This document shows positions 36,954 through 55,946 of a stretch of 64,000 nucleotides of DNA, one piece after another. The stretch comes from Paenibacillus physcomitrellae (GTDB lineage Bacteria > Bacillota > Bacilli > Paenibacillales > Paenibacillaceae). The notes under the pieces are model-generated. The model was not told the DNA's origin. It did not search any database and worked only from the letters and a program-made list of their open reading frames with translations. Position numbers and translations under genes: made by a program. Location of the stretch: positions 2,639,501-2,703,500 of the forward strand of contig NZ_CP022584.1 of the NCBI RefSeq assembly GCF_002240225.1, written 5' to 3'. Position 1 is the first letter of the stretch. Each line of letters opens with the position of its first letter.

Positions 36954-39521
36954 TCATCTTAAACTATTATCCCCGTCATAAATATAGTAAAAGCCTTGGC
37001 TGGCCAGCGGGATTCTGGCTCCCTGGAACTCGTCGTAGACGGTGAGCGTAAAGTTGCCGCCTTTGAGATCCTGATAAATCGAATCGCTGTTGCTGAAGCT
37101 GAGCGTATTTCCCTCACCAGTCTTCAAGTCCGTTTCTGGCGTCAGCTCCTTGTCGAAGACACGTCCCAGCGAATCCTTCATCTCCAGCACATATTTATGG
37201 CCGAATTCTCCCATGATATAGGCATTGCCGCGGGTTAGCGTATACGTCAATCCAACCTGTACCGTAGAGGAACCATTTAATGTAGCAGCCACGTCAGTGA
37301 TACTTAAGGAGTAAGGATTAATCCCCATACCCGAAAGCGTCGAATTCGTTCCAGGTGTCTGGACATTCAGAGCCATTTCGCCGGCATTGATATAGCCAGT
37401 AGATTCAGTCTTAAGCGGAGTAAGCTTGTTGTCCGCGATTCCTTCTCCGACGACCAGCTTCATATCCTGCGTGTAAAGGCCTTTTGGCAGATTGGTCCAG
37501 AGCACGACAAGACCGCTTTGCTGGGATGGAGCAGGCGTATCTACTTGTACAACTTGCGCTTGATAGGTTTGTCCGGAGCTGGTTTCAAAATAACCCACCA
37601 ACTGCGACAAATCCAGTTGATGTTTCTCCAGATTCTTCACTTCAAGTTCGGTATACATAACATCGTTATAAGATCCTGTATAAACCGTGGATCTGACTTC
37701 TTTGATTTCCTCTTCGCGTCCTTGATTGTCGAGTTTGTAGCTCTTACCTTTGTCTACTACCGGAAGACTCGGCATTTCACCCAAATGGGTGAACCGGAAC
37801 CATTCGGACGAGTTGTCGCCTATTTTCTCCATCAACGCCACTTGAAGCTGGGTAACATCCAGGCCGGCAGGAAGCTTGCTGACCACATAAACATTCGTGC
37901 TTTGATCAGCGCCCAACAGACTGGAAGGCGAAGTGCTGACCAGATTCACATCATTGGCAAGCTGCGCAGAATCCACTTTAAACTGTCCGGTTAAGTCCGG
38001 TAGCGTAATCGTTTTGTTCGCATGGTTCGCGATCGTAATCTTGGCGCTTACTAAATCTCCGTCACTCCAAGGCAGGCGCTGTATGGAAGAGAGTGTTAAA
38101 CCAACCAGGCCGTTATTGGTTTGCATAAACTGCTCAGTACCCAAAGTATTCTGCAACTGGACAGCTTCAGGAAGCTGGAAAATCCCTACCGGGTAGTTGA
38201 AGGAAGCCGCTGAAGAAGTACCCCCACCAGTTCCGGTACCAGTAGAATCACTCGGCGTTTGCTGTGCAGCACCAGGAGCATTCACAAACAGCTGCAATCC
38301 ATCAGTAATGACGGAAGAATCTACCGTAATATTAAGTTTGATGCTTCTGCTCTCCTGCGGCGCCAATGTTACGTTATCCAAAGCAGACGTTGTGATCGGA
38401 AGGGTATAGCCGTTAGAAGTATGCAGCTCGAAGCCATAGTCAGGAACACTTACCGTTTTCATCCCTGAATTACGCAGCAGGAATTGGATGGACAAATCGC
38501 TTTTGCCATAGCTTTGATTCACCCAAGCTCCTGTTACACTAGCCGCCAACTTCCCGTTCGACAACTCAATCGTCTTCTCGGCGTTTGGTTTGACAGCGAC
38601 CGTTTCATTCTTAACGGATGCCAGCTGCATCGTAGCGATTGGCAAACTCGTTTTAGCTGTTTCATCGTCTTGAATCACTTGCAGTTCCAGATTCTTGAGA
38701 GAAACGGATTTAGGAATCGATGCCATCAGTTTCAGTGTTTGGCTATCTTGAGGCTGAATCGAGTAGCCTGTACTCGATGTGTCCGCTGTTAGAGGATAGT
38801 TCGACCCGCTGGCTGTCTTGATGACAAATTTTAACTTCGGATCTTCAAACAGTTTGTAACCGATGTTCTGTACGTTCAGATCTACCCCTACATAATTGTA
38901 GCTGCCGGAGAGGAATGAGGTTACGCTGTTTACTTTAAGTTTGACAGGCGCTTCATTAATTCGAAGCGTCTTGGAATAAGCCGCTGGCGTAGACAACAAA
39001 TACCCTTCGGGAATTTTGAACTGCCCCAGCTTCCTTTCATAATTAGCCTGACTGAAATCCCATTTCACAATATCAAAAATCAGGCCCGTAGGCTTAATAT
39101 GCTTGGCCACTTTAACGGAATAAGTCAACGTTACCGAAGATCCCGGTGCTACAGACTTCTTCTCTTTATCCGCTGTAATCAACGTTGGATTATATACGGT
39201 ACCGCTTACGGTTTTGACCTTAGTCCAGTAGTCAATCAGATTCAAGCTTTTGGTATCTCCGTTGGTAACGGTCAAAGTGTAAGTAATCAAATTTGAGTCG
39301 TCTTGGGAAAGAGTGTTGATGTCAGTTAATCGTATGTAGCTCTTGGAGGTAAGTTTAACGGAAGGAAGATTGTTGATCGTATGTATGACTGGTGTGGAAG
39401 CAGCCTTTGATGTCGATGCTTTGGAAGCTTCAGTACTGCTTGTTGCCGCCATAGCCGGTGGCACACTGCCAACCAAAAGAGTTAGTCCCAATGCCGTCGC
39501 TGTGATTTGGATCTTTTTCAA
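36954..39521 (-). CDS. large secreted beta-rich protein of unknown function
   Basis: This 855-residue protein has a clear signal peptide (IQITATALGLTLLVGSVPPAMA). The rest is a series of Ig-like beta modules of ~120-150 residues, each with hydrophobic strands and a turn such as APGSSVTL, QPQDSQTLKL or APQESRSIKL. A Ser/Thr/Gly linker (TPSDSTGTGTGGGTSS) sits mid-protein. There are no SLH, LPXTG or catalytic motifs. The start is TTG with GGAGGTC nine bases upstream. It lies next to the S-layer switch region, just outside the putative inverting segment. Confidence 0.82.
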   Translation of the reverse strand: MKKIQITATALGLTLLVGSVPPAMAATSSTEASKASTSKAASTPVIHTINNLPSVKLTSKSYIRLTDINTLSQDDSNLITYTLTVTNGDTKSLNLIDYWTKVKTVSGTVYNPTLITADKEKKSVAPGSSVTLTYSVKVAKHIKPTGLIFDIVKWDFSQANYERKLGQFKIPEGYLLSTPAAYSKTLRINEAPVKLKVNSVTSFLSGSYNYVGVDLNVQNIGYKLFEDPKLKFVIKTASGSNYPLTADTSSTGYSIQPQDSQTLKLMASIPKSVSLKNLELQVIQDDETAKTSLPIATMQLASVKNETVAVKPNAEKTIELSNGKLAASVTGAWVNQSYGKSDLSIQFLLRNSGMKTVSVPDYGFELHTSNGYTLPITTSALDNVTLAPQESRSIKLNITVDSSVITDGLQLFVNAPGAAQQTPSDSTGTGTGGGTSSAASFNYPVGIFQLPEAVQLQNTLGTEQFMQTNNGLVGLTLSSIQRLPWSDGDLVSAKITIANHANKTITLPDLTGQFKVDSAQLANDVNLVSTSPSSLLGADQSTNVYVVSKLPAGLDVTQLQVALMEKIGDNSSEWFRFTHLGEMPSLPVVDKGKSYKLDNQGREEEIKEVRSTVYTGSYNDVMYTELEVKNLEKHQLDLSQLVGYFETSSGQTYQAQVVQVDTPAPSQQSGLVVLWTNLPKGLYTQDMKLVVGEGIADNKLTPLKTESTGYINAGEMALNVQTPGTNSTLSGMGINPYSLSITDVAATLNGSSTVQVGLTYTLTRGNAYIMGEFGHKYVLEMKDSLGRVFDKELTPETDLKTGEGNTLSFSNSDSIYQDLKGGNFTLTVYDEFQGARIPLASQGFYYIYDGDNSLR

Positions 39522-39914
39522 GCCAGTTGACCTCCTGTGTTCTTGATATAGTAATAAACGAATTTGATAGGAGAATGTTTCTTGGAAATGGAAAAAAGTG
39601 CATAGTCTATAACCTAAAATGGGAAGGTTAGAATGTGCATATTTATCTTAACATTATTTTGTTGGACAGTAACTTAAAGTTGGCTGAATTAATATCTCTA
39701 ATTTAATTGTTGACCCAAAAAGAGGTACTCACTTTCTAATTGTTCGCTTCTAGCTTGTTCTCCCTTAAGGTTCTCATATTTCCCCATCTTATCCTATGAC
39801 GGTGTTGATGGTGCCTATGGCGAAGATGCTCGTCTACCAAATGTTAATAGTCATAGTATAATTTCAGATTTTGATTCGGGTGTCTCACCTCTGGGGAGCA
39901 TCATAGCACTTATA
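39522..39914. other. 393-base gap upstream of the silent S-layer cassette
   Basis: From about 39714 the plus strand is open in frame with the cassette, but it has no start codon preceded by a ribosome binding site and no similarity to the S-layer N-terminus. The segment would serve as the fixed left flank of the inversion. The left half must contain the promoter of the gene ending at 36954, not identified with confidence. Confidence 0.5.
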
Positions 39915-39941
39915 AGCGTAACTGCAACTAACCTTAAAGAA
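39915..39941 (+). repeat. 27-bp inverted repeat, left copy (candidate recombination site)
   Basis: The sequence begins AGCGTAACTGCAACTAACC and continues CTTAAAGAA; it is identical to the minus-strand sequence at 49851..49825. Upstream of position 39915 similarity to the S-layer gene stops at once; downstream it decays gradually into protein-level similarity. In both copies it encodes SVTATNLKE in the same frame. Confidence 0.92.
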
Positions 39942-42908
39942 ATCGATGTTAAATTCGACGGTTCTGTTGACGAAACAACTGCTACAGACAAAGCTAACTA
40001 CACACTGGCTTCCGGAGCTGTTGATTCTGCTGAGTTGCTTGACAACCAAACAGTACGTTTGACTGTTGTTGATCATCTTACTAACCAAACAGCAAACAAG
40101 TTGACTGTTAAAAATGTAAAAGCTGGCGACAAAGTTATTTCTGTCACTGATTTTGCATTTACTCCTGTTGACAACACTTTGCCAACTGTCACTGAGGTGA
40201 AGAGTCTTGGAACGAAGGCTATTAAAGTAACATTCTCTGAACCAGTGGAAAAAGCTACATCCGGAAACTTCCAAGTTGATGGAAAGTCTTTCTATGGATC
40301 TGCAACACAAGAATCAAGAGAAATTATCCTGACTCCATATGACTCTGCAACCCTTTCTGTTGGAGAACATACTCTGACAGTAGCTGGCGTTGAAGACTAC
40401 TTCGGTCTTAAAGCGTTGAGCTCTGACAGCAAATTTACAGTAGTTGAAGACAAAACTGCTCCTACTGTAACAAACGTTGAAGCTACTTTGGAAAAAGTAA
40501 CAGTAACATTCAGTGAAGAAGTGGATCCGGCTACAGTAACTAAAACTAATGTTTACTGGAAATCCGGTGACACTAAAATGACTGCTGTAGGTATGAAGAA
40601 AATCGCAGCTGATAAGTATGAATTTGATTTCACAGGAAAAGCATTGCCTGGTTATGAAACAACTTTGTTTGTTGAAGGTGTGAAGGATTACTCTGGCAAT
40701 GTGATCACTGAAACTCAAGTTAAAGTAACAGCGACTGTAGACCAAACTCGTCCTGAGGTTGCTAGTGTCAAAGTTGATTCTTTGATCCCTACCAAGGTTA
40801 CAGTTAAATTTACTAAAGCGGTTAGCGCTGCAGATGTAAAATACTACACTATCACTGATGCTGACGGAAAATCTGTTGGTATTCGCACAGTAACTGCCGC
40901 ACCTGGTGATACAACTGGTCAAGTATTTGAAATCACAACATACACTGCATTGACAAATACGAATACTATTAAAATTTCCGGTGTTCGTGATTTGACAACA
41001 CTGCAAAACACTATGTTGGACTTTACTACAACAATCTCTCTAGATGATAAAACTGCTCCAGAGTACTCTAGTACTTCTGCAAGTACTTCTAGAAACATCG
41101 TTATTGCTTTCAATGAAGCAATGGATCCAGCTACACTGGCTAATCCTGCAAACTACCTGATTACCGTAAATGGTACTGCAAGACAACTTCCTGAAGGAAC
41201 TGAGCTTACGCCAGTACAAAGTGGTAAAGCTGTACTTGTTAAGTTGCCGCAATACTACGGTACAACTGAATTGACAATCCCAACTACATTTGGTGGCGCT
41301 GGTTCTGTAACTGCGATCCAAGTAATGGGTGTTAAAGACGTTGCTGGTAACACATTGAAGGATTATTTCAAACTTATTACACTTGTTGCTGCACCGGCTG
41401 GGTTGTCTGTTTATGATACTGATATCCATCCAACTGCAAACGCTGCTTACACAGCTAATGGCGAAGTGAAAGTTCGTTTCAATCAACCAATCGGCAAAGC
41501 TGTTGCAGATGATTTCACAATCAATGGAGCAAACATCGATAGTGTTGACACTGATGGCACCGATGTTGTTACTCTTCATGTAAGTGGTACCGCGTTGAAT
41601 AGCACAACTCCAAACTTTACGTTGGCAATTGCGGCTAACAATGGTATCGAAACAGTGACTGGTAACGAGGCTACCAATGCTCTTACTACAATTACAGTAG
41701 CTGATGCTGTGAAACCAGAAATCAAGCTGGCTTCCGGAGCTTACTTGCCAACAGTTGCTGCATCGAACAAAATTATTGTTCCATTCAGTGAAACGCTTGA
41801 TACAGCAAATGACGCAAACTACAAATATGATTTGGTTGTTACTAAATTGTCGGATGGATCTGTTGTTCCAGTGACTGCTTACAATACTCAAGTGGGTGAT
41901 GCAACTGGTGCAGCTCATACTGCTCCAAACAATGCAGTAATTATTACACTGATTAATCCTACTGCAAGTGCTGAGTACTCTGTTGCAATTAAAGATGGTG
42001 CTGACTTCATTCAAGACCTTAACAATAATGTTGCTGCTAAATCTTCAACATTCTACACAGGTTTGAACGGAATTAGCCCAGCCCCAGCTGCTCCAACGGT
42101 AAATGCTGTGGCAGATAACGAAACTACAGTAACAGGTACTGCAGAAGCTGGTTCTACTGTAACAGTTAAAGATGCTGGTGGTACAACATTGGGATCAACA
42201 ACAGCTAACGCTGCGACTGGTGCTTTCTCTGTGACAATTACTGCTCAAACAGCAGGATCGGTACTTTCGGTGACTGCTACAAACGCTGCAGGAAATGTAA
42301 GCTCTGTAGCAACTGTTACTGTTTCTGACAATACTGCTCCAACTGCACCAACATTAACTGCACAAAATGTTAAAGGTGGAGACGTGGTAACAATTCCAGC
42401 TGCTGGCACTGGTAATACAGCATGGTTGGCTCCTGCAGGAACAACTACTTTTGTAGAAGGTCCAACGATGACTAAAGCTGCAAATGATGCTGTAACTACA
42501 ATTGCTGCACCAACTAACGAAGGAACATATTATCTGTACCTTGTTGATGCTGCTGGTAATGCTTCTACTGCATCTACTGGTACTGTTGTAGTTGATAACA
42601 CTGCTCCTTCTGTAGCAACTAAACTTTCTGCCCCTGGAGCATTGACTACCAGTGAATCATTAGTATTTAGTGAAGCTCTTGATTCAGCGAGCAGAAGTGC
42701 TGTAAAAACTGCAGTAGATGCTGCGTATGTTGCAGCTCCTGGTACTGGCACAGCCACTGTGTCTAGTGCCTGGGATACTGATAATAAGACTTTGAATGTT
42801 ACAATCACTGTAACAGGTGACGGTGTTGTGAACTCCTCGGCTATAGCTCCAATTGCTGTAACTGATCTTGCAGGAAATACTTCTGCTGCACTTGCCGTAC
42901 AAAACTAA
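39915..42908 (+). CDS. silent, start-less S-layer protein cassette (alternative C-terminal region)
   Basis: There are 997 open codons with no promoter, start, signal peptide or SLH domain. The product would match residues 260 onward of the expressed S-layer protein: VDNTLPTV...SLGTK, DGKSFYG, FTVVEDK.APTV, VEGVKDYSGN and LQNTMLD are shared. Overall identity looks around half and the C-termini are unrelated (cassette ends SSALAVQN-like, with Ig modules such as AAGNVSSVATVTVSDNTAPTAP). It is in inverted orientation to the expressed gene and has its own terminator. A TTG at 40035 could in theory start translation. It is best read as a donor/alternative allele. Confidence 0.85.
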   Translation, partial: SVTATNLKEIDVKFDGSVDETTATDKANYTLASGAVDSAELLDNQTVRLTVVDHLTNQTANKLTVKNVKAGDKVISVTDFAFTPVDNTLPTVTEVKSLGTKAIKVTFSEPVEKATSGNFQVDGKSFYGSATQESREIILTPYDSATLSVGEHTLTVAGVEDYFGLKALSSDSKFTVVEDKTAPTVTNVEATLEKVTVTFSEEVDPATVTKTNVYWKSGDTKMTAVGMKKIAADKYEFDFTGKALPGYETTLFVEGVKDYSGNVITETQVKVTATVDQTRPEVASVKVDSLIPTKVTVKFTKAVSAADVKYYTITDADGKSVGIRTVTAAPGDTTGQVFEITTYTALTNTNTIKISGVRDLTTLQNTMLDFTTTISLDDKTAPEYSSTSASTSRNIVIAFNEAMDPATLANPANYLITVNGTARQLPEGTELTPVQSGKAVLVKLPQYYGTTELTIPTTFGGAGSVTAIQVMGVKDVAGNTLKDYFKLITLVAAPAGLSVYDTDIHPTANAAYTANGEVKVRFNQPIGKAVADDFTINGANIDSVDTDGTDVVTLHVSGTALNSTTPNFTLAIAANNGIETVTGNEATNALTTITVADAVKPEIKLASGAYLPTVAASNKIIVPFSETLDTANDANYKYDLVVTKLSDGSVVPVTAYNTQVGDATGAAHTAPNNAVIITLINPTASAEYSVAIKDGADFIQDLNNNVAAKSSTFYTGLNGISPAPAAPTVNAVADNETTVTGTAEAGSTVTVKDAGGTTLGSTTANAATGAFSVTITAQTAGSVLSVTATNAAGNVSSVATVTVSDNTAPTAPTLTAQNVKGGDVVTIPAAGTGNTAWLAPAGTTTFVEGPTMTKAANDAVTTIAAPTNEGTYYLYLVDAAGNASTASTGTVVVDNTAPSVATKLSAPGALTTSESLVFSEALDSASRSAVKTAVDAAYVAAPGTGTATVSSAWDTDNKTLNVTITVTGDGVVNSSAIAPIAVTDLAGNTSAALAVQN

Positions 42909-42956: not shown

Positions 42957-43164
42957 AACTCTAAGGAAAATAACAACATGCATTTTTGTATAAGAAATCT
43001 GGTTTGAATAGAATTAAAAGCGTATATTATATTACTGAATAAGATGCACAGTCCTAATTCCCTTCGTGGAGTTAGGGCTATTTCTATTTCAAGGAGGAAT
43101 GAAGTCTAAATCATTACAACGCTTCAAAGCCAGAGCTATACAAACCGCAACCAGGAGCATCAAA

Positions 43165-43617
43165 ATGAATCACCAGCTCCAAAAGAGAATAAACATTGTC
43201 AGAGTGAAGCTAGTCAGGGAATCCAGTCTGCTGTACAAGGAAAGATCCCTCTGCTCCCCCGAAGATGGATACAAGCTGATGAGGCATTATCTCGCCGACC
43301 TAGACCGTGAGGCCTTCATCGTTGTCAGCTTGGATACCAAGAACTCCCCCGTCTCCATCAACGTCTGCCACATCGGCACCCTCAATGCCACAATCGTCCA
43401 CCCCAGGGAAGTCATGAAAGCCGCAATCCTCTCCAATGCGTCCTCCATCATCGTAGGACACAACCACCCCAGCGGAAACAGCTCCCCCTCTCAAGAAGAC
43501 ATTTCCACTACTGAAAGACTGGCGGAAGCAGGTAAGATCATCGGCATCGAGCTGCTGGATCACATCATCGTAGGTAACGATAACTTTGTCTCCTTGAAGA
43601 CACGGGGATACATTTGA
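43165..43617 (+). CDS. RadC-like JAB-domain protein
   Basis: This 150-residue protein carries the JAB/MPN metalloprotease-like fold of the RadC family, with the metal motif VGHNHPSGNSSPSQED (His99, His101, Asp112). RadC-like proteins are common on mobile elements; the function is unresolved. I chose ATG 43165, seven bases after AGGAG; GTG 43066 and ATG 43099 upstream have poor spacing. It lies within the putative inverting segment and overlaps nothing. Confidence 0.82.
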   Translation: MNHQLQKRINIVRVKLVRESSLLYKERSLCSPEDGYKLMRHYLADLDREAFIVVSLDTKNSPVSINVCHIGTLNATIVHPREVMKAAILSNASSIIVGHNHPSGNSSPSQEDISTTERLAEAGKIIGIELLDHIIVGNDNFVSLKTRGYI

Positions 43618-43631
43618 AAGGAAGTGACCGA

Positions 43632-43928
43632 ATGAAGGAACTGGATTGGTTTGTAACGACCCTAGAGAGCGAATTTCAGGTCAGAGTGAATCGGGAAGAG
43701 GTGAGCTATGAGGCCGTTGAATTATCGTTTGATGAGCTGGATGAGTCCCTAATCCCGCGTGAACTGATTCACGATCTGCCTGAGTTCCTACTCTTTGAGA
43801 CGCTTGTGAACGACAGCGAGGACGGGACCGAATGGCTTGGAGTGATCGCCATGTCCACGGAAACGAAGAAATGGCATCTGCAAATGATCCTGAGAAGTGG
43901 CGAACCACTCCTGAGAAGAAGAGTCTAA
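43632..43928 (+). CDS. small acidic protein of unknown function
   Basis: This 98-residue, acidic protein (ELDWFVTTLESEFQVRV, SFDELDESLIPRELIHD) starts at ATG 43632, eight bases after GGAAG and 14 bases after the RadC-like gene, so the two are probably cotranscribed. No recognised domain; no membrane segment. Confidence 0.65.
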   Translation: MKELDWFVTTLESEFQVRVNREEVSYEAVELSFDELDESLIPRELIHDLPEFLLFETLVNDSEDGTEWLGVIAMSTETKKWHLQMILRSGEPLLRRRV

Positions 43929-44325: not shown

Positions 44326-44374
44326 AGCCATGAATGCACCCTACAGGATTCATGGCTTTTTTGCGTGTAAGGGG

Positions 44375-44993
44375 ATGAATCGAGTGAATGAACTTTCGCC
44401 GGCTTTTAGGCGTTGGCTCTTTGAGGAAGGAAGAGCCGAGAAAACGATTGAGTCTTACGTGGGTGACGTTGTTGCGTTCCAAAAGTACCTCGGCGAAAAG
44501 GCGGTTGATATCAGTCAGCCCCTCTCCCGCTTCGCCTTCGTCAGATACAAGCAGCATTTGGTAGACGAGCACTTCGCCTTGGCCACCACCAACAAGAAGA
44601 TCAACAGCCTCAAAGTATACAAGGACTTCCTCCTCCAAAAGGATTGGGTGGAAGAAGCGTACACCCAGCTCAAGAAGGATCAGGTGAAGATCGCAGCCGG
44701 AAGCGGGCTGGTCGGCATCAGGCAAGACATCGACTTTCTGACTTCTTCGCTTCTCGTCCTGGGCAAAGGAGGGAAGGTGAGGGAAATCAGATCCCGTTCG
44801 GAACTGGCTTTCTATCATTTCAAGAGAGCTTGACTTCAAGCTGTACCCGCATCTGTTCAGGCATACATTCTGTACAAGACTATTGAAAAAGGGTCTAGAC
44901 CCCACAGCGGTAAGCAAATTGGCTGGGCACTCGCCCCGGTTTAACCGTCTGATGGAAGAAGCCACTGTTTTTGATTCTAAAAATTCGTGCTAG
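44375..44993 (+). pseudogene. degenerate tyrosine recombinase
   Basis: The N-terminal core-binding (SAM-like) domain is present (LSPAFRRWLFEEGRAEKTIESYV... YKQHLVDEHFALATTNKKIN) as far as LGKGGKVREI. The catalytic domain is then broken. The original frame stops at 44833, and the next frame reads HLFRHTFCTRLLKKG...AVSKLAGHSPRFNRLMEEAT to a stop at 44993. This keeps the HxxRH and GHS boxes but has lost the region in between and the Tyr context. Internal deletion plus frameshift; not functional alone. Confidence 0.85.
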
Positions 44994-45133
44994 AGCAGTG
45001 AAGGGAATAAAAGCGGCTGAAGTCGGAGATGAATAAGTTCACTAACTGGCACAAAGTAAGAAACAAATCAAGAAGAAGAAAACGAATAACAAGTAGTTTC
45101 CGGTCCAAATCACACGTAAAAGGAGCGAAACAT

Positions 45134-46042
45134 ATGACAACAATCCAACATCACATCCATTCACAAAAGGAAGCAAACATTCCCTTCAGAACGTACATAG
45201 CAAAATTCCTGGAAGGACTCCAGGCAAAAAACACAAGCAATGAAACGATAAGCGGATACAAAAAGGACTTGGAAATGATCAATCGCTTCCTGGAGGAACG
45301 ATATAATGGCATCGTGATGCTTCATGATATAAAGACGCAGGATTTAGAAGACTATTTGAATGGGTTAAGCCGTGAGCGTAAGTATCAGCCGGCGAGCGTG
45401 AATCGGCATTTATGTACGATGCGCTCCTTCTATAACTTCGCCATCAAGCGCGACTGGACGAACGTCCATGCGGCAGCCCCCATCGATCCGCTGAAAGCAC
45501 CTACGAAGGAGCGAACCTACATTGATGAGAAGGAATACCACGAACTCGTACAAGCCATTGACCATCCGACCATCAAAACCATCGTGCAATTTCTCTTCTA
45601 CACGGGGCTGCGAATTGCGGAATGCCTAAACCTTACACTGGATGACGTGGACATTGATAACCTCAACATCCATGTCAAACATGGGAAAGGGGATAAGGAG
45701 CGGAATGTTCCCATTAGCGCAAAACTATCGCCGATTCTGACGGAGTACAAAGACATCATTCGGCCCGAAATAAGCAGCAAACGGTTCTTCGCTCTCGAAA
45801 AAACAGGCAAGGTCTCGGACGTGTACGTGAACTATATTCTGCACAAAACCACAGCTAAGCTGGGTTGGAAGAAGGTGATTACTTGCCACATCCTCAGACA
45901 TAGCTTTGCTTCCAATCTAGTTAAGAAAGATGTTCACGTCGTTCACATCCAGAAGCTGTTAGGTCACAGCGACCTCAAGACAACCTCGCGCTATGTCCAC
46001 TCCAATTACGATCAGTTAGCAAAAGCTGTAGCGGTACTATAA
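45134..46042 (+). CDS. tyrosine recombinase (XerC/XerD-like)
   Basis: Site-specific recombinase of 302 residues, starting at ATG 45134 behind AAAGGAG. It has a core-binding domain (~15-110) and a complete catalytic set: Arg160 (FYTGLRIAE), Lys185 (GKGDKERNVP), His252-x-x-Arg255 (CHILRHSFAS), His278 (LLGHSD) and nucleophile Tyr287 (TTSRYVHS). It lies between the S-layer gene and its silent cassette, inside the segment that would invert. It is the natural candidate enzyme for the switch, although a host XerCD or RecA route is possible. Confidence 0.92.
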   Translation: MTTIQHHIHSQKEANIPFRTYIAKFLEGLQAKNTSNETISGYKKDLEMINRFLEERYNGIVMLHDIKTQDLEDYLNGLSRERKYQPASVNRHLCTMRSFYNFAIKRDWTNVHAAAPIDPLKAPTKERTYIDEKEYHELVQAIDHPTIKTIVQFLFYTGLRIAECLNLTLDDVDIDNLNIHVKHGKGDKERNVPISAKLSPILTEYKDIIRPEISSKRFFALEKTGKVSDVYVNYILHKTTAKLGWKKVITCHILRHSFASNLVKKDVHVVHIQKLLGHSDLKTTSRYVHSNYDQLAKAVAVL

Positions 46043-46088
46043 AGGGGCATATTGCTTCCTCTTATCTTTTGCAGAAGGGATGAACCTA

Positions 46089-46793
46089 ATGATAACTACT
46101 ACTCCAAACACAAAGCCAATCTATGATTCACGTGTCAATGAAATACTGGAAGGATTGTCCCAAGGCATTCGTCGGGATCAACTTGCGGAGCGATTTGGAC
46201 ATAAGAACTTCAAAACCCTCGACATCTACATGCGCCGTAGGAACTTTAAATGGGATCATTTGAACCAAACCTATGTTTTATCGGGCAGATTAGCAAGGGG
46301 GAAGATCACGCCTGCAAATAAAGCGGCGATCATTGTGGAGATGATGAACGAGCCTGATTTCGACATTCAGCAGATCTGTTCGACGGTTGGATTTAAGGAT
46401 AACCGGCAATTAGCAGAATACATGAGGGCAAAGGGATACATATGGTCATCCGCAGATCAGACGTACAGGAAGGAATTACAACCCTCTTCGGACTCTTTGC
46501 ATGATTGGGCTTCGTTCATTCAGCACTACGAGCCTATTCTGCGGTGGCTAGCGTCAAACAAAGACAGAATTTCAGATTGGATAAAGCCGAATCAAAAAGG
46601 TACCTTACCTCACTACATGATTCCGGGAAAACTTACAAGGAAAACCATTCAGATGTCTGAAACCCTGCAGGACCTGGCCGTTACCTTCTGCACGGAGCGA
46701 AACCTCAAACAGCATGAACTCTTTGAAGCCGCCCTGATTGAATTCTTCAGGAAACAAGGCTATGAAATAGACAACTTTTTGGAATTTCCTTAA
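46089..46793 (+). CDS. probable DNA-binding protein with two HTH-like repeats
   Basis: This 234-residue protein lies 46 bases after the recombinase in the same direction. Residues ~15-62 and ~79-126 are two related modules. Each consists of two helices with an HTH-like turn followed by an aromatic motif (DIYMRRRNFKWDHLNQTY versus AEYMRAKGYIWSSADQTY). The C-terminal part (TRKTIQMSETLQDLAVTFC... HELFEAALIEFFRKQGY) resembles a ribbon-helix-helix-type or helical dimerisation unit. It may act as an accessory or directionality factor for the recombinase, by inference from linkage. The start at 46089 is preferred over 46080 on RBS spacing. Confidence 0.72.
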   Translation: MITTTPNTKPIYDSRVNEILEGLSQGIRRDQLAERFGHKNFKTLDIYMRRRNFKWDHLNQTYVLSGRLARGKITPANKAAIIVEMMNEPDFDIQQICSTVGFKDNRQLAEYMRAKGYIWSSADQTYRKELQPSSDSLHDWASFIQHYEPILRWLASNKDRISDWIKPNQKGTLPHYMIPGKLTRKTIQMSETLQDLAVTFCTERNLKQHELFEAALIEFFRKQGYEIDNFLEFP

Positions 46794-46935: not shown

Positions 46936-46978
46936 GAAAAAAAGAGAAACCCAACGTCTTTAAGACGTTGGGTTTCTC
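46936..46978 (-). terminator. perfect 17-bp palindrome, probable S-layer gene terminator
   Basis: At 46944-46978 GAGAAACCCAACGTCTT is followed by one base and its exact reverse complement. On the minus strand the stem is followed by TTTTTTTC, placing an intrinsic terminator about 50 bases after the S-layer stop. Confidence 0.85.
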
Positions 46979-47028: not shown

Positions 47029-50000
47029 TTAAGGAGTTACTGTAATAACTTGCTGATTAGACACATCACCAGATGTAGCTTTTACGGTAAAAGTACCTGC
47101 AGATACATCCTCATCTACTGTAACTTTACCTGTTGAATCAATTGTAACACCTGTAGGAGCGCCTCCAACAATTGTCCAATCGATAACTGGAGCTGGTGTA
47201 GTTACTTCAGCACCATACTGATCATATACAGTAGCAGTCAATTGAGTTTCGTTAGTGTCTCCTGCTGCTGGTATTGCTACAGTATTAGTTCCGCTAATGT
47301 TAAGAGATGTAGGTACTGCTGCCTCTTTTGTCAAAGACACTGTATAATCATTACTTACGGTCGAAGAGTCTGGAAGAGTCGCAATCACATGAATGGTAAT
47401 CGTTCCCTCACTTGCACTCGGTTGTACTGTAAGTTCACCAGTTGTTGGGTTGATTGATACTCCAATCGGAGTTCCGCTCAAAGACCATGCATAGGTAGAT
47501 CCAGTGATTTCACCTTGTTGATCACTTGTTTTAGCTACATAGTTCTCTGTTTTGTTTGTAGTACCAACTTCGATGCTACGAGGGCCTGTTACACCAACTG
47601 TAGCAACTGCAGCATAATCTACTTTATCAGCTGTAGTTGTTGCATCAAAAGAGGTTACCTCATTCTTAACTGGAGAAACATCAGTCAGATACTCGGAGCC
47701 TTTGAATGCAACGGTGTAGAAGCTATCGTCAATTCTGGAATCGGTATCTTTCAAATGAATTTTCAGAGAAGTTGTAGCAGTCCCTGGAGTAATTCCAGTA
47801 ACAGAATAATCAACTCCTGGTGTTAACTCTTTGCCATCTACATAACGAGTAACAACAAAGTCTCTAGCCAAGAGGTCTGCACTAGCAATAGTATCAAGCA
47901 CAACATTCTCAGTGAAGTCAACAGTAATATCTTCGCCAGACACCTGAAGGTTAGTATAACCACCTGAAACATTAGCTTTGATTGCTGGAGCTACTTTATC
48001 AAGTACATTGACAGTCTTAATATTTGTTGCACCACCAACATACCCAGCAAGAGTTGTCAATTGACTAAGATCAACCTTAACATTCAAACCAGAAGTTGAT
48101 GTTCCATAATCACTAGCCAATATAACTTTCACTGTAGAAGTACCATCAACTTGAACATCACTGATAGTTTTTCCTGAAACAGTAAAAGCAGAAATTGGGG
48201 CATCGACGATACCTGCACTGAATTTAACTTCAATAGTATCTGGAGCAGTCAATGCAGCGCTATAACCTGAATAATCAGTGTCATAAGTTCCTAAGTTAGC
48301 TGTTTGATCTGCACCTACAGGAATTTCATTATTAGAAGTAGTGAACTCTTTCAACAGGTTTCCTGCCTGATCCTTCACGCCTAGAACATAAAGTTTTTGG
48401 ACGTTTTGAGTAGAGCTACTTGTGAGAGAATTGAAGTTAAGAGTTTGGCCCTTATAACTTTCAACAAATTTAATTGCTACTGCATGGCTATCTTGAAGAA
48501 CAGTAATGTCAGCAAGATCAGAAGTCAACGGAAGACGAGTACCGTTAATAACTACATTATAATTCGAGTAGTCAGAAAGTGTACTAGCATCCATTTGTTT
48601 GTCAAATCCGAGAATAACAGTACGTTCGGATTTATTAACCAAGGTGGAATCTAATTCTGGAGCTTCTGTGTCCGCAAGATTAACTTTACCAGTGTAATCA
48701 AGCATAGTGTTCTGCAATTTAGTGTTATCTCTCAAGTTTTTAATTGTAACTGTATTTTCACCTGCGGACAAGCTACCATACAGTTCAATTCTCACCTTAG
48801 TATAGAGATGAGTAATAGGGTCCTGTACCGGAGTCGCGCGTTTTACGATAACATTTTTGCCATCAGCATCAGTTACAGTAAAGTTAGAGTTCGTATAAAT
48901 CGGGCCAGTTGTAGAAGAATACAACTCTTTAGAGAAAGTTACATCAATAGTCTTTGAATCAACTGCAACAATCTTTTTCACTTCAGGTCTAGTTGTATCA
49001 ATTTCAGCATTAACAACAACTGAAGTATTTGCTGCGATTTGATTTCCAGAGTAGTCTTTAACTCCTTCAACATAGATAGTCACTGGACCAGTTGGCAAGG
49101 AATTAGTTCCTGTTCCAAAAGTGAATTTATACTTATTGTCTGCAACTCGAATCGGGTCAGCAGCAGTAGCTTGTTTTTTGGAGTTACCAGACATCCAGTA
49201 CACTTTAGAACCAGAAATTGTGGAAGGATCAACAACTTCAGAGAATGTCAATGTAACATTTTCCAAGGTAGCAGAAGCTTCAGAAACAGTTGGTGCATCT
49301 TTATCTTCAACTACAGTGAAGTCAAAAGATTTAGCTAGTGCTACAAAGTTTGCATAATCTCGAACTTGAGAAACAGTCAACTGGTGATCACCTACAGCAA
49401 GTGCCCCAGTAGAGTATGGAGTTAGAATAGCCGACCGATTTTTTGCACCCAATTCAACTTTTCCATAGAACGATTTTCCATCCAATGTAAAATTAGATTG
49501 AGTCAATCCACTTACCGGCTCGCTAAATACAACTTTAACTGATTTAGTACCAAGAGATTCAACAGAATCAACCGTTGGAAGTGTATTATCAACAGTTGTA
49601 AATTCTACATTCGATGCACTAACAGTAGCGGATCCAGCTTTGATTCCTGTAACGGTCAAAGCATCAGCTTTGTTATTTGCGAGCGTGTTTGTAACAGTAA
49701 GAGTTACTGTTTTCTCGTCATCACTCAATACTGCGGAATCAATTGTCTTACCAGACTTCAAAGAGTAGTTAGACACGTCTTCGGCAGTATCAGCATCTAC
49801 AGTACCGTCAAAAGTAACTGTTACTTCTTTAAGGTTAGTTGCAGTTACGCTGTCAACTTTAGTTGCAGTAGTTACAACATAAGTTACTTTAGTAGAAAGC
49901 GTGTTACCTGCAGCATCTTTGAACTCGATTGGAGTTTCAACGTTAGGAGTCAACGCAGTTGGCAATTCTACTTTCACAACTTCACCAGTAGAAAGTGTAA

Positions 50001-50628
50001 CGTCAACGTGAGTTGCGTCGATTACTTTAGCGTCAGATACTGTAGGAAGTTGAGATTTCTCCCAAACTGCATATGCAGCAACGATTGCTTGGGAGCGAGT
50101 TGCAGCTGCAGTCCAGTTAGTGTTAGCTTCAAGCAAACCAGCGTTGATCGCAGCTTGAACTTCACCTTTAGCCCATACAGCAGCGCCGTTGTCAACGCCA
50201 GTTGTTGGAACTTCAAGGTTCATAGCGCGAGTCAGAACGATAGCCAATTCTTGAGCCGTTACGTTGCCGTTAGGGTTGAAGAATTGCTTACCGTTAACTA
50301 CGGAACCTTGCATGATCTTAGCACTAGTTACAGCTTCGATGAATGGAGCTGCCCAGTGGTTAGGACCATAGTTTTTATCTTTGTAAGTGTAAACGCCGTT
50401 TACTTCTTTCAGGCCCAAAGATTTAGTGATGATCTTCGCCAGTTCAGCGCGAGTCAACGTTTTGTCCAAATGAGCCAAGCCGTCTGGCAAACCATTAACG
50501 ATTTCAGCAGTTTTCAATGCATCGAATTTTTGGTCTGGCGTCAAAGTTGCGTCAGCACCAAATGCTACAGAAGCAAACATGGAGAATGCCATTGCTGTAG
50601 ACAGAGCTACGGATAAAATTTTCTTCAT
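47029..50628 (-). CDS. S-layer protein (expressed form)
   Basis: This 1199-residue secreted S-layer protein starts at ATG 50628 behind AAGGAGGAG. It has a signal peptide (MKKILSVALSTAMAFSMFASVAFGA) and SLH domains at ~28-190 (TLTRAELAKIITKSLGL; VTAQELAIVLTRAMNL; ATRSQAIVAAYAVWE). About eight Ig-like/SbsC-type modules follow, and a C-terminal Big-type repeat ends VITVTP. The in-frame extension upstream of ATG 50628 is not signal-peptide-like. The 27-bp repeat at codons 260-268 divides a constant SLH-containing part from the part that has a counterpart in the silent cassette. Confidence 0.95.
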   Translation of the reverse strand: MKKILSVALSTAMAFSMFASVAFGADATLTPDQKFDALKTAEIVNGLPDGLAHLDKTLTRAELAKIITKSLGLKEVNGVYTYKDKNYGPNHWAAPFIEAVTSAKIMQGSVVNGKQFFNPNGNVTAQELAIVLTRAMNLEVPTTGVDNGAAVWAKGEVQAAINAGLLEANTNWTAAATRSQAIVAAYAVWEKSQLPTVSDAKVIDATHVDVTLSTGEVVKVELPTALTPNVETPIEFKDAAGNTLSTKVTYVVTTATKVDSVTATNLKEVTVTFDGTVDADTAEDVSNYSLKSGKTIDSAVLSDDEKTVTLTVTNTLANNKADALTVTGIKAGSATVSASNVEFTTVDNTLPTVDSVESLGTKSVKVVFSEPVSGLTQSNFTLDGKSFYGKVELGAKNRSAILTPYSTGALAVGDHQLTVSQVRDYANFVALAKSFDFTVVEDKDAPTVSEASATLENVTLTFSEVVDPSTISGSKVYWMSGNSKKQATAADPIRVADNKYKFTFGTGTNSLPTGPVTIYVEGVKDYSGNQIAANTSVVVNAEIDTTRPEVKKIVAVDSKTIDVTFSKELYSSTTGPIYTNSNFTVTDADGKNVIVKRATPVQDPITHLYTKVRIELYGSLSAGENTVTIKNLRDNTKLQNTMLDYTGKVNLADTEAPELDSTLVNKSERTVILGFDKQMDASTLSDYSNYNVVINGTRLPLTSDLADITVLQDSHAVAIKFVESYKGQTLNFNSLTSSSTQNVQKLYVLGVKDQAGNLLKEFTTSNNEIPVGADQTANLGTYDTDYSGYSAALTAPDTIEVKFSAGIVDAPISAFTVSGKTISDVQVDGTSTVKVILASDYGTSTSGLNVKVDLSQLTTLAGYVGGATNIKTVNVLDKVAPAIKANVSGGYTNLQVSGEDITVDFTENVVLDTIASADLLARDFVVTRYVDGKELTPGVDYSVTGITPGTATTSLKIHLKDTDSRIDDSFYTVAFKGSEYLTDVSPVKNEVTSFDATTTADKVDYAAVATVGVTGPRSIEVGTTNKTENYVAKTSDQQGEITGSTYAWSLSGTPIGVSINPTTGELTVQPSASEGTITIHVIATLPDSSTVSNDYTVSLTKEAAVPTSLNISGTNTVAIPAAGDTNETQLTATVYDQYGAEVTTPAPVIDWTIVGGAPTGVTIDSTGKVTVDEDVSAGTFTVKATSGDVSNQQVITVTP
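49825..49851 (-). repeat. 27-bp inverted repeat, right copy (candidate recombination site)
   Basis: Identical to 39915-39941 in inverted orientation; it encodes residues 260-268 (SVTATNLKE) of the S-layer protein. On the gene side an extra ACTGCAACTAA lies about 23 bases upstream as a direct repeat of part of the site, absent from the cassette side. Confidence 0.92.
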
Positions 50629-51142
50629 AACCTTTTTTTCTCCTCCTTGAATAACTTTCATGTGTAAAGAGTTTTCTTTAGATGAATAGCTCGTGTTACT
50701 CATTAGCCGTGCACCCCCTTTCCCGAGTTGAGCAAGCTTCATATGAATGATGTCTGTGAGTTCGTCACAGAAACTTGTAAACATTTCCACAGGTAGAAAT
50801 AGAGTAGTTTCCTAATCCTACCTTCCACATTATACAATGTGCGACTTTAGCCGTAAAGCTAAATTTTCTAATAGATAGACAAGTTTCCCTATAAGGGACA
50901 CTCTTCCATGTCTAATTAGGTCGCCCTTGCGTAACGCTCTACATCTTAAACGCTGTAGTTTCAAAAAAGTTGCGCCTTTCGCAAAAAAAATTACATTTCT
51001 TTAATTACTGTTACCGCGCGCCTTTTATTGAACAATTTAGCAATTATGGCTTGTTACGGAATTCAGTATATCACCCCTAATTCTCCCAGTCATCAAGCAA
51101 CTTTTCCCAATACAATAACCTAAATTTATGCAGCTGAAACGA
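50629..51142 (-). promoter_or_regulatory. S-layer promoter region and long leader
   Basis: A -10 TATAAT at 50834..50829 with a 17-base spacer and weak -35 TTTACG (50857..50852) is the best promoter, giving a leader of about 195 bases. The leader contains pairing possibilities around the AAGGAGGAG site. Further upstream is AT-rich sequence with a GCGAAAGGCGC hairpin at about 50970. Long stable leaders are typical of S-layer genes. Nothing else is visible in this ~500-base gap. Confidence 0.6.
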
Positions 51143-51216: not shown

Positions 51217-51558
51217 TTATCTTACCTTCATAGCCAGGTTAATCAACTGAGCACGAAGCTCAGGATTGGCATTCACATTGGAATAGAAATTATCGATAGC
51301 ACCTTTGTTATCTTTATATTCCTTCTCATGTTTCATCGTTACGCGGGACCATTCGATCAGCTCGTTTTCTGCTTCAGTCAGGGCCACATAGGCTTCATGA
51401 AATCCTGTTTCCAATACGAGTCCTTCCATAACCTGCTCCGTAATTTCTTGCAGCTTCTGTGTTTCTTCGATCTTCTTCTCCAAAACTTTCGCTCTATCCT
51501 CAAATTTCGTCTTAGCTTTCGTATAGTTCAGCTGCGGTTTTGATAAAATCGGTTTCAT
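51217..51558 (-). CDS. small coiled-coil protein of unknown function
   Basis: This 113-residue, charged, helical protein (FEDRAKVLEKKIEETQKLQ; FHEAYVALTEAENELIEW) has no signal peptide. The ATG at 51558 follows GAAGGGG; a non-ATG start four codons upstream is less likely. It lies between two S-layer-type genes and has its own terminator. No family recognised. Confidence 0.7.
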   Translation of the reverse strand: MKPILSKPQLNYTKAKTKFEDRAKVLEKKIEETQKLQEITEQVMEGLVLETGFHEAYVALTEAENELIEWSRVTMKHEKEYKDNKGAIDNFYSNVNANPELRAQLINLAMKVR

Positions 51559-51662
51559 ATTCCCCTTCACCCTTTTGCAAAAAATGTCTGGCCTTCTGTT
51601 ATTGTATCCTAAATTCTATTAAATTACAAAAAGATGTAATTGGTAATTACGGCTGTCCTGTG

Positions 51663-51701
51663 AAAAGGGCTCCCGGCCGTCTGGCCGAAAGCCCCTTTAT
51701 T
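51663..51701 (-). terminator. terminator after the second SLH protein
   Basis: Minus strand: AAAGGGGCTTTCGGCC-AGAC-GGCCGGGAGCCCTTTT, with a short U-tract, 20 bases after the stop codon. Confidence 0.8.
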
Positions 51702-51720
51702 GTTTATTGTCACATCACTT

Positions 51721-54700
51721 TTAACTAAAAGTCTTAGGGAAGATACCCGTGCTCTTCTTAAGCAATTCAACTGCGATTTTACCCGCTTCTGCCCGTGACA
51801 TGTAACCTTTAGGGTTGAAGCTGTAGACCGGCTTGGTTGAGCCAGGAAGAGTTGTAGCACTACCCGTCATAATCTTGGCTTTAGAGACTGCCGATATAGC
51901 CGGTTTAGCATAATTGTCTATGCTGCCTGAATCAACAAAAGACTTGGCTAATGTGGCACTCAGTTTATCATCATTTAATGCCAGTTTCAGATTCAGGGCT
52001 CTTGCAATCATGACCGCCGCCTGTTCTCTTGTAATCGGCTGCTCAGGTCCAAAGAACCCATCCGTCTGCCCGGTGATGATCCCCGCTCTGGCGGCCGTTT
52101 CAATATAGTCATAACTGTAAGTTGCCGTAATCAGATTTGGAGCAACATCCGAGAATGTTCGTGGCGTCAGTGATGTGTCTGAATTAATCGGCAAATTCAG
52201 ACCTTTGACAAGCAAAGTGGCGAATTCGCCGCGTGTTGTCCGGTCATCCGTACCAAACGCATCCGTCCGCAGGTTATTCATAATTCCTTTGGAATACAAA
52301 GCATTCAGAATGTTACGCGCCCAGCCATGGTTCGTAATGTCGGCAAACCCCATACGAAGCTTCATCACTTTATAGTAGCCAAACTCGTCAAACGGAACGG
52401 TTACAGTATGATCTTTGGTATCCACTTCGCCGCCGATATTCTCCCAAATACCGCCATCGTCGTAGCGGAATACTGTAATCGTTGTGCCCGCATCATCGAC
52501 GATATTGGGATCATAAGCTAAAGTGAGCGTACCTCGTTGCGATGGCACCAATTTCCTTTCTTGTTCAAACCGGGTGAATGACCCTTCAACCGAATACGGG
52601 GAAACCCCGTTCATCGGCGGTTTGCTTCCAAATTCCGCAAGACCTCCATTAATCCAGTAGATAGAGGACACCAGCGAGAAGTTCGTTGTTCTTGCTGTAG
52701 TGGTGAACTGAAGCCTGATAGCATCCGGAATTGTCATTACCGGCTGATTACTTTCCGGTAAAAGTATATTATTTATTATGTTACCATAATCATCCTGATG
52801 GGTAATTGCACCATCCACCGGATCGGCAATACCAAACAAGATCTTGTTGTCTGGATAGAATTTGGTCACTTCCGTGCCCGTCGGAATGGTCTGTAGAATA
52901 GTCCCTTTAGGGAATGACAGGGTCAGATTTTTGTTGAACACCGTATATTTGTTGCTTACTTTCTCCGCCATGTATTCTGTATTTACACCGACCGAAGTCG
53001 TGTAATATACCGAAATCACACCATTCAGAGTCGTATCCGAACGTACGATTTGAATCTTGATATCGTTCTGCTTATCGGGCTTGAGTCCAACATAATCATA
53101 AATGAACCGGTCCTTGATGTCCGCCCGTGGAGTAGCAGCCTCCTTGCCAATCAATACCTGAGTGGCTCCGGCCGCTTCAATATCAATGTGAACAAAGTTC
53201 TTGTTTACAACAATTTGATCTCCTGAAGTCGGCTGCGGTGAAATCACCCGAAAAGGCTCGACTACCCGTTCGATTTCAATCTTCTTCGTAGTCCGCGCTC
53301 CTGTATCATTCACCAGCTCCAACGTATAGAATTGGCTGCCTGGAATATCAAACGGAATATCTTTAATACGAAGAATAAAGTCCTCGGAAGTACCAACAAT
53401 GTCGTACTTTATAGTTTTACCATCCATGTCAAACTGGAAAGGCTGCTTCAATGTTTCATTGAAATTAATACTGAACATCACCTGAGAACCCCGATAGAAG
53501 TTCAGGACACTGACCCCGCCACCTCTCGCTACCAAGTCATACTGCGTTTGACTTGTAACATACTTATCATTGGTTGAGTCATAGGTAAACAAGGTTGAAT
53601 TAGCCAAAATCTGATCAATGTTGTCTTGCTGTGTGGCATCCCCCAAATCCGTTGGGAAAGGAATATCTTTGGGTCTTACATTCGGATGAAACTGCTCAAG
53701 CGTCGATCCGTTCTTATCCGTAATGTAAATAGTCAAAGAGGTCTGCACTGTAGTCGGACTGCCCTGACTGTCCAGATAAACACCAGAGAACACAATGACG
53801 TTCTCCCCGTAAACAAGCGGCCCTTTGTTAGATACACGCAACTTCAGGGAGAACGAAGGATTAGCTTTTGTTACTCCCAAATCGTATTCGGTTTCTGAAT
53901 CCGTTCCTGTCTCTGAATCTGCACTTAAATTATCCCCTTGCAGGCCATTAACAAAATATTCGGCGCTCGATATATTAGGAAACCCGATATATTGCCCTTG
54001 GATTGGAATGATGGTTTCATCAGCAACCTCAGGATTGGATTGCGTTGTAGAATCCACCTCAATGCTCTGGCCATTCTGCAAATTACTGATTGAAATCGAG
54101 GCCTTGGAGATAAACGAGATCGTTACATCTCTTCTGTCTGATGGGTTCGTTGGATCGAATTGCAGCCGCACCTTTTGCTGGCCGCTCGCAAATCCGGTAA
54201 CTTTATAAACCTCGTAATAAGTAGTCTTACCATTAACTTTAATAGCTATATTTCTAATAGGTATGTTTAAAGGCAGGACATTCACATCTCTTGTACCTAA
54301 AGGAAGATAACGGCCTGACAAAGCTTCGCCCGCCTGTCTCGGCTTAAGCGATTCAACCATGATGTAGTAATCGCTGGCATTAACCGTCGCCCCGTCTAAT
54401 GATTCCTTGGAGACTTTCGACAGATAGTCAGGCATATCTGCTGCAGATGTTGTACCTGCTTCTGTTTCATTAAATTTTGGCGCATAATAAATGTTCACGA
54501 TTTGATTACTGTCTGGATAATAATCAAAGGTTCTCGAAATCGATTTATCAAAATTTGCCTCTGGAGTACCGTCCATTGTTACATGAAGACCAACCACATT
54601 AGTCTTGCCAGCAACAGGAACAATTACTGGGATAAACTTGCTAAGGTCAATTTGAAAAGTGACAAGATGATATTGAGGAGTAACTCCATCCGATCCCGGT

Positions 54701-55872: not shown

Positions 55873-55946
55873 AATCTCTCCTTTTTCCTCGATAGTATTA
55901 CCTCTTTTATCGGACAATCCCCTCTAAATTTGAAGAAAATTGGCAT

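Follow-up and report, generated by a model that had tools for sequence, protein, structure and literature searches.

The window analyzed here is a stretch of 64,000 nucleotides of Paenibacillus physcomitrellae (assembly GCF_002240225.1, contig NZ_CP022584.1, positions 2,639,501 to 2,703,500), and our subject is a pair of neighboring genes within it, which encode a tyrosine recombinase and a predicted DNA-binding protein (hereafter, the accessory protein), together with the S-layer genes that flank them. The features on which the argument turns are as follows, with positions numbered within the window.

39915-39941, plus strand: recombination site copy 1, 27 bp, an exact inverted repeat forming the first codons of the headless S-layer tail.
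39915-42908, plus strand: headless (silent) S-layer tail of 997 amino acids, with Big_5 and Big_6 domains.
45134-46042, plus strand: tyrosine recombinase (integrase/invertase), PF00589 at E 7.2e-34; a start at 45029 is also open.
46080-46793, plus strand: accessory DNA-binding protein (predicted), with two helix-turn-helix (HTH)-plus-hairpin modules and a helical C-terminal part.
47029-50790, minus strand: S-layer gene taken as expressed, with SLH and Big_5 domains; head at about 49852-50790, variable tail at about 47029-49851.
49825-49851, minus strand: recombination site copy 2, 27 bp, inside the S-layer gene taken as expressed.

The two copies of the 27-bp inverted repeat are identical, where 100 shuffles gave an expectation of 0, and no third copy with 3 or fewer mismatches was found in the 4.83-Mb genome. 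The two copies have unrelated DNA on their left and homologous coding DNA on their right; the identity of copy 1 to copy 2 begins abruptly at 39915. No ATG, GTG or TTG was found before the site in the open frame of the 997-amino-acid tail, which is 37.7% identical to the expressed tail, and we take 47029-50790 as the expressed copy because it is the only one with a head. As the initial annotation of this stretch had claimed, the recombinase and accessory genes both lie between the two sites, and because these sites are inverted, the 9.9-kb segment that they enclose would be expected to invert. Carried out in silico, the inversion gives an uninterrupted, in-frame S-layer protein of 1310 amino acids, versus 1253 at present, such that the inverted repeats join one S-layer head, in frame, to a headless alternative. 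On the basis of this arrangement, it is probable that the window pair forms an S-layer switch that operates by inversion.

The initial annotation had also described the recombinase as complete, and it was right: in addition to the PF00589 match, the full catalytic set (R160, K185, H252, R255, H278 and Y287) is invariant in 14 of 14 aligned recombinases, the window copy included. The closest solved structures are XerC-like, XerA and XerD proteins, and the closest NCBIfam models are likewise those of XerC, XerD and XerA, whose equivalog cut-offs the window protein does not reach (194.9 versus 335.15 bits for XerC, 171 versus 329.6 for XerD and 189.1 versus 220 for XerA). For the second gene, the claim of two similar HTH-like modules stood, in that the modules of the window protein align with a local score of 58 versus a maximum of 40 in 200 shuffles; a third, helical C-terminal part had gone unmentioned. 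The repeat score exceeds the shuffle maximum in 27 of the 28 members of the accessory family, V112 being the exception. An AlphaFold model of moderate confidence (mean predicted local distance difference test score of 76.5; predicted template modeling score of 0.32) shows two helix-helix-helix-hairpin modules, followed by a long helix and two further helices. The C-terminal part, with two helices, no strand and low confidence before them, gives weak similarities to Arc (Z 4.0) and MatP (Z 4.1) and is possibly ribbon-helix-helix-like, as judged from this model. No Pfam or NCBIfam family matches the accessory protein at cut-off, and its best library match is phrog_2727, of unknown function (E 1.7e-9). 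Foldseek with the model returned no confident match (best E 0.078 in the PDB and 0.047 in viral models), the best VIA-align score (Z 5.4) was on a common HTH, and searching PDB sequences with a profile made from the accessory alignment gave nothing better than E 0.09.

How widespread is this pair in the genus, and what does the locus look like without it? The recombinase is present in 2 of 40 genus genomes (E 1e-25), namely, the window genome and G038, and the pair adjoins S-layer genes in both; the S-layer head is present in 36 of 39. The two recombinases are 90% identical and the two accessory proteins 63% identical. The comparison between the two carriers and their relatives draws on additional features of the window.

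36954-39521, minus strand: host flank gene of 855 amino acids; of ten relatives fetched, all without the element, 8 have it after the S-layer gene.
43066-43617, plus strand: RadC-like gene of the element (PF04002, E 9.2e-44), found also in the G038 element and, by BLAST, in the G751 and G758 elements.
43614-43928, plus strand: small element open reading frame (ORF) of 104 amino acids, with no Pfam family, within a stretch conserved in G038.
44330-44936, plus strand: remains of a second tyrosine recombinase, with a match to the N-terminal domain only; intact in G038.
46944-46978: near-perfect palindrome of 35 nucleotides, 97% self-complementary, between the convergent accessory and S-layer genes.
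51217-55917, minus strand: host flank on the promoter side, with a 117-amino-acid gene and a 1398-amino-acid gene, syntenic in relatives.

In the 8 relatives just mentioned, the S-layer gene is followed within 0.14 to 0.79 kb by the 855-amino-acid gene, and the 117- and 1398-amino-acid genes lie on the other side of the S-layer gene. Among the irregularities, G033 has a 168-amino-acid ORF between the S-layer gene and the 855-amino-acid gene, in G024 the 172-amino-acid gene further out found no match, G026 is without the 855-amino-acid gene, and G018 has an antisense ORF drawn over the S-layer gene. No recombinase or accessory match was found in the fetched stretches of the ten relatives, and these loci represent the unoccupied insertion locus. 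The distance from the S-layer stop to the 855-amino-acid gene is about 7.5 kb in the window and about 12.5 kb in G038. Both flanks of G038 are collinear with those of the window, and the block from RadC to the accessory gene is inverted. From the head, the order in G038 is the site, a new tail, RadC, the second tyrosine recombinase, an acidic protein and a helicase with DUF927 and HTH_56 domains, and then the recombinase, the accessory gene, a 215-amino-acid ORF on the other strand and the headless old tail in direct orientation. We considered G038 as an exact mirror isomer of the window and ruled this out, as its displaced tail is direct, not inverted. Relative to the G038 element, the window has lost the helicase, and its second recombinase is broken by deletions in the alignment. 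The helicase domains score above the Pfam cut-offs, and the protein falls below the NCBIfam cut-off for SCCmet_Cch1 (291 versus 700 bits). Relatives of the 309-amino-acid second recombinase of G038 (P0002) occur in the G399 element (47%) and the G751 element (42%). The 27-bp site matches at 27 of 27 positions in both window copies and in the G038 head, and at 16 to 21 of 27 in the 9 of 18 element-free relatives in which the motif was found by pattern. Across the genus relatives, the heads of the S-layer proteins are conserved and the tails are divergent.

In wider searches, the accessory protein was found in 13 of 398 genomes of the phylum and 3 of 394 of the family (the window genome included in both counts), in 4 of 97 genomes of one class and 3 of 26 of a second (already known ones included), in 1 of 46 of another class (already known), on one plasmid, that of Haliovirga abyssi, and on 11 IMG/VR contigs; INPHARED phage records gave no match. 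One of the three family genomes, G359, was dropped, its match being 27% over 77 amino acids (E 8.5e-4) with an internal stop, and L114 was merged with G591, the two contigs agreeing in length and content, leaving 28 records. The pair thus ranges over the Bacillota, a Fusobacteriota plasmid and viral contigs. At 30 of 33 copies, the gene immediately preceding the accessory gene, in the same orientation, is a recombinase or its remnant (the exceptions being the second G399 copy, the contig edge of G468 and the decayed G907 copy), and in 29 of the 30 pairs the two overlap or are at most 50 bases apart, measured from the end of the recombinase match to the start of the accessory gene. Tyrosine recombinases below 60% identity are themselves common, with matches in 1176 phage records and at least 5000 plasmid records. 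Pattern scans of viral contigs yielded 1 and 3 contigs, of which 3 of 4 carry the pair; these patterns were built partly from the same contigs and are no independent test, and the fourth contig (L153) has pilin-like genes and no pair.

Six of the 28 records end no more than 1.1 kb beyond the accessory gene (the G591 contig, V107, V109, V110, V112 and V113), and of the 22 that extend further, 18 have a surface-protein segment within about 10 kb of the pair. By our own handles, these are S-layer or immunoglobulin (Ig)-type segments in G000, G038, G426, G468, G687, G734, G747, V104, V105 and V106; pilin segments in G624, G758, G884, V108 and V111; flagellin segments in G399 and G751; and RHS tip segments in Haliovirga. 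In 17 of the 18, the normal N terminus is missing, and the segment starts at a motif that is normally internal to the protein: GFTLVEL or GFTLIEL in pilins, a 13-residue motif in flagellins, YRYCLGNP-RYVDPSG in RHS proteins and an Ig strand such as SAINAKEIQIKF in S-layer proteins. No ATG, GTG or TTG precedes the motif in 18 of 21 frames read (L112 was set aside as unclear). The segment lies 3' of the accessory gene and on the same strand in most loci; in the window, the spare tail is upstream of the pair. In G399, the full flagellin comes first and after it an element that includes a second recombinase and a primase-like large gene; then come the pair and a headless flagellin, and last an accessory copy with a second headless flagellin, an order that reads as repeated insertion at one site. 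On the Haliovirga plasmid, three RHS tip cassettes come after the RHS gene, each following the pair or its remnant. This plasmid (L021) can also be described as three units of replication initiator, pair and orphan RHS tip, and an IS3 element interrupts one of its recombinases.

The junctions themselves are att-like. The sequence GTGCTATTA is invariant in 9 of 9 clostridial and phage S-layer-type tails, and the base before it is A, T or G, giving Ser, Cys or Gly; a varying base next to an invariant core points to a constraint on the DNA rather than on the protein. A pattern search of 10 genomes for the S-layer site with 0 or 1 mismatches gave 2 matches in G426, 2 in G747, 4 in G687, 1 in G591 and 1 in G468, and with 2 or 3 mismatches it gave 10 further matches, versus 2 for the reversed pattern at the same setting; no head site was found in G734 with this pattern. 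In G687, a prophage of about 42 kb (identified by eye from its genes and from a related contig in IMG/VR, L114) lies inside an S-layer-like gene, between the head and the old tail, with core copies at 2543830 and 2502013 as direct repeats, that is, as attL and attR. A related phage in G591 presents the joined form, in the order phage right end, core, tail and phage left end, which could be a circle, attP or a tandem copy. The two phages are 98.6% identical in the recombinase, 96.9% at the right end and 73% in the early region, and their tails are 38% identical (L151 versus L042; the two G687 tails are 87.5% identical to each other). Because the recombinases are so similar and the tails so different, the S-layer tails themselves seem to be exchanged between phages. 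Direct att repeats and a joined, attP-like form, as expected of an integrative element, are thus found in relatives only; the window copies are inverted. The head and spare tail are direct in G038, G399, G758, G687 and Haliovirga, an orientation from which integration and excision are predicted, and inverted in the window, in G426 (40398 and 47016) and in G747 (146506 and 168679), from which inversion is predicted. A further exact S-layer site in G687 (G687:C1:2577260-2577288, L149) lies outside any drawn ORF of at least 80 amino acids.

We think it likely that the pair is the integration module of phages and other elements that insert in surface-protein genes and that the window holds a reduced copy with inverted sites. 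In this model, the att core lies within a conserved, mostly N-terminal coding stretch of the host surface gene, and the element carries its own core directly before a replacement 3' part of such a gene. The integrase and the accessory protein would recombine the host core with the element core, fusing the host head to the element tail and leaving the old tail headless beside the element; excision would reverse the fusion. To judge from its position and its predicted HTH modules, the accessory protein is probably the component that contacts the att arms and determines the target and direction of the reaction, the latter being what a recombination directionality factor would do. In the window, what would remain of the element is RadC, a broken second recombinase, an intact pair and one spare tail, and the same reaction would invert the 9.9-kb segment, swapping the exposed part of the S-layer protein between two states. 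The inversion looks like a secondary arrangement of an integration system. What the sequences show is the conserved pair, the headless tails, the att-like junctions in both orientations, the joined and integrated forms, the syntenic loci free of the element and the in-frame fusion. We infer the catalysis, its directionality and inversion in living cells, and any benefit, such as a change of phage receptor, is likewise our inference. The trees fit integrases tuned to their targets, without proving them: the recombinases at pilin loci form one clade (support 100/99), and on the recombinase tree all target labels together need 9 changes versus a shuffled mean of 12.5, a value as low in 0 of 200 shuffles, with "unknown" counted as a label. 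The accessory tree has long branches, and its pilin label needs 3 changes.

Several observations weigh against this model. No surface cassette was found at G584, G632, G883 and G907, despite enough flank, and the spare tail is on the strand opposite the pair in G426, G624 and G884. A possible start codon precedes the motif in 3 of the 21 frames (G468, the first G399 cassette and V108), the G751 flagellin copy has its own start codon, and the surface identity of the V104 and V105 tails comes from the motif alone. The sites of the window and G038 have other sequence in place of the clostridial GTGCTATTA core, and the displaced tail of G038 is direct, with a diverged site. The invertible segments of G426 and G747 do not include the pair. 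The S-layer label does not cluster on the recombinase tree (6 changes, as low in 74 of 500 shuffles). Finally, no recombination event was observed, and no single species showed the window segment in both orientations, the window genome being represented by one assembly.

The initial annotation had proposed a dedicated S-layer invertase with its accessory factor. On this account, the pair evolved with the S-layer locus of the genus to serve host phase variation, and its mobile relatives are side branches; both genes do lie between the sites and beside S-layer genes in both genus carriers, and G426 and G747 also have an S-layer-type head and an inverted spare tail on one contig. A two-gene recombination module beside S-layer genes is indeed what we find, and its two sites would give an in-frame S-layer switch. 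What is not supported is the word "dedicated", because the recombinase is rare in the genus while the S-layer head is widespread. In addition, the syntenic S-layer genes of relatives are without the element, related pairs occur on prophages, inserted elements and a plasmid as well as at genes for flagellin, pilin and RHS proteins, and the G038 element includes a Cch-like helicase and another tyrosine recombinase. Relatives on prophages or plasmids with att sites of their own had been named in advance as evidence against the proposal, and they count against it by half, but their apparent att sites are themselves surface-protein genes. The distribution and the relatives led us to reject the proposal in its simple form, which we regard as quite improbable.

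Could the window instead hold a dead remnant, a decayed element whose repeat is inactive and whose 27-bp identity is kept by a conserved Ig strand or by gene conversion? The broken second recombinase and lost helicase gene would fit, as would the fact that the site encodes a conserved protein motif. The frames of the recombinase and accessory genes, however, are intact, the recombinase being 90% identical to that of G038 and the accessory protein 63%, and the site is perfectly kept in the window and the G038 head but not in the nine element-free relatives; we consider this explanation unlikely. Least credible of all, to a degree that we would call remote, is a reading in which paralogous S-layer genes trade their tails through homologous recombination or gene conversion and the recombinase is an unrelated passenger. 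Homology between the tails does extend over hundreds of residues, a trait of known silent-cassette systems, but the left borders of the repeats are abrupt and fall at one motif in unrelated species, which is why we rejected it, and the cassettes that neighbor the pair belong to four unrelated protein families. A small control came from six loci (two of the six being one gene) at which the same genome has other tyrosine recombinases: an S-layer, flagellin or pilin gene lay within 1.5 kb in 0 of 6 cases.

Additional observations concern the elements and their surroundings; phage, primase-like and Rpn-like genes in the fetched loci were named by eye unless noted. The palindrome at 46944-46978 is possibly a terminator shared by the accessory and S-layer genes. 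Just left of the silent tail, 41 bp (39803-39843) match part of the G038 second recombinase at 88%, antisense, and were perhaps left by an earlier rearrangement. Four genomes have RadC-like genes along with the pair, namely, G000, G038, G751 and G758 (43066-43617, L013, L063 and L051, respectively), and the acidic protein of the G038 element (L013:15584-16480) is 299 amino acids long, highly acidic and rich in repeats. One viral contig, IMGVR_UViG_2851175764_000002 (L104/L152), has two different recombinase-accessory pairs with a headless S-layer-type tail between them, and the second pair adjoins repressor-like genes. Rpn-family ORFs lie beside the pair in L042, L044, L045, L050, L053, L110, L148 and L021 (PF04754 was tested for L042, annotation was used for L021, and the others were judged by eye). 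The contig scan by two short peptide patterns, which was little informative, also gave recombinase matches of 28 to 30% in L019 and L020.

Parts of this model have precedents. The cwpV switch of Clostridioides difficile uses the tyrosine recombinase RecV and acts on expression, not on the tail of the protein, and we know of no accessory protein of the window family at cwpV. The likeness to the window lies in a tyrosine recombinase and surface-protein phase variation in the Bacillota. At the sap locus of Campylobacter fetus, which has one promoter and head, several cassettes are exchanged by inversion; this exchange is RecA-linked and relies on long 5' homology, with no element-borne integrase known. 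The single head and cassette exchange by inversion are what sap shares with the window. For the Lactobacillus slp genes, no linked recombinase is known. In Lactobacillus acidophilus, a chromosomal inversion at slpA/slpB exchanges the active and silent S-layer genes (PMC7858073, citing Boot et al. 1996), and this is the closest precedent for the switch. The window differs in that its segment carries the integrase and accessory gene and in that its spare tail is headless. The icd gene provides the parallel for the integration step, in that phage 21 integrates in icd, with the element supplying a replacement 3' end. The e14 prophage integrates inside Escherichia coli icd, where the displaced 3' region is 163 bp (PMC6379469). 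With e14 as with our elements, the insertion falls in a coding gene, the new 3' end comes from the element, and the previous end persists as a fragment; e14/icd is the closest precedent for 3'-end replacement (PMC6379469). However, icd is metabolic, whereas the site here lies early in surface proteins (near the end of the core in RHS proteins), the replacement takes in most of the exposed protein and often brings a divergent one, and the integrase has a conserved accessory protein as its companion. A description of such a system, with four unrelated surface families and a conserved accessory protein, was not among the matches listed in a search of open-licence PMC titles and the starts of abstracts, with subscription papers and preprints outside its scope.

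Taking the broadest view, and with odds that we put only a little better than even, we propose that the pair marks an undescribed class of temperate phages and integrative elements, spread over the Bacillota and Fusobacteriota, with an integrase and a three-domain accessory protein tuned to short motifs in the coding sequence of S-layer, flagellin, type IV pilin and RHS genes. At each integration, the exposed portion of the surface protein, which may be the receptor of the phage itself, would be exchanged and the old portion stored as a spare, and hosts would repeatedly have made the inverted form into antigenic switches. Such elements can be searched for by three marks, namely, the conserved two-gene module, the signature of a headless tail and the core motifs, and in Gram-positive bacteria the pair might become useful for exchanging the tails of proteins. 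If this proposal is true, lysogeny and the integration of other mobile elements would be linked directly to surface variation, and replacement of an S-layer, pilin or flagellin tail could alter phage adsorption, immune recognition and adhesion in one step. It would also explain, in a concrete way that is open to test, where S-layer inversion switches come from and why the S-layer proteins of the genus are unevenly conserved.

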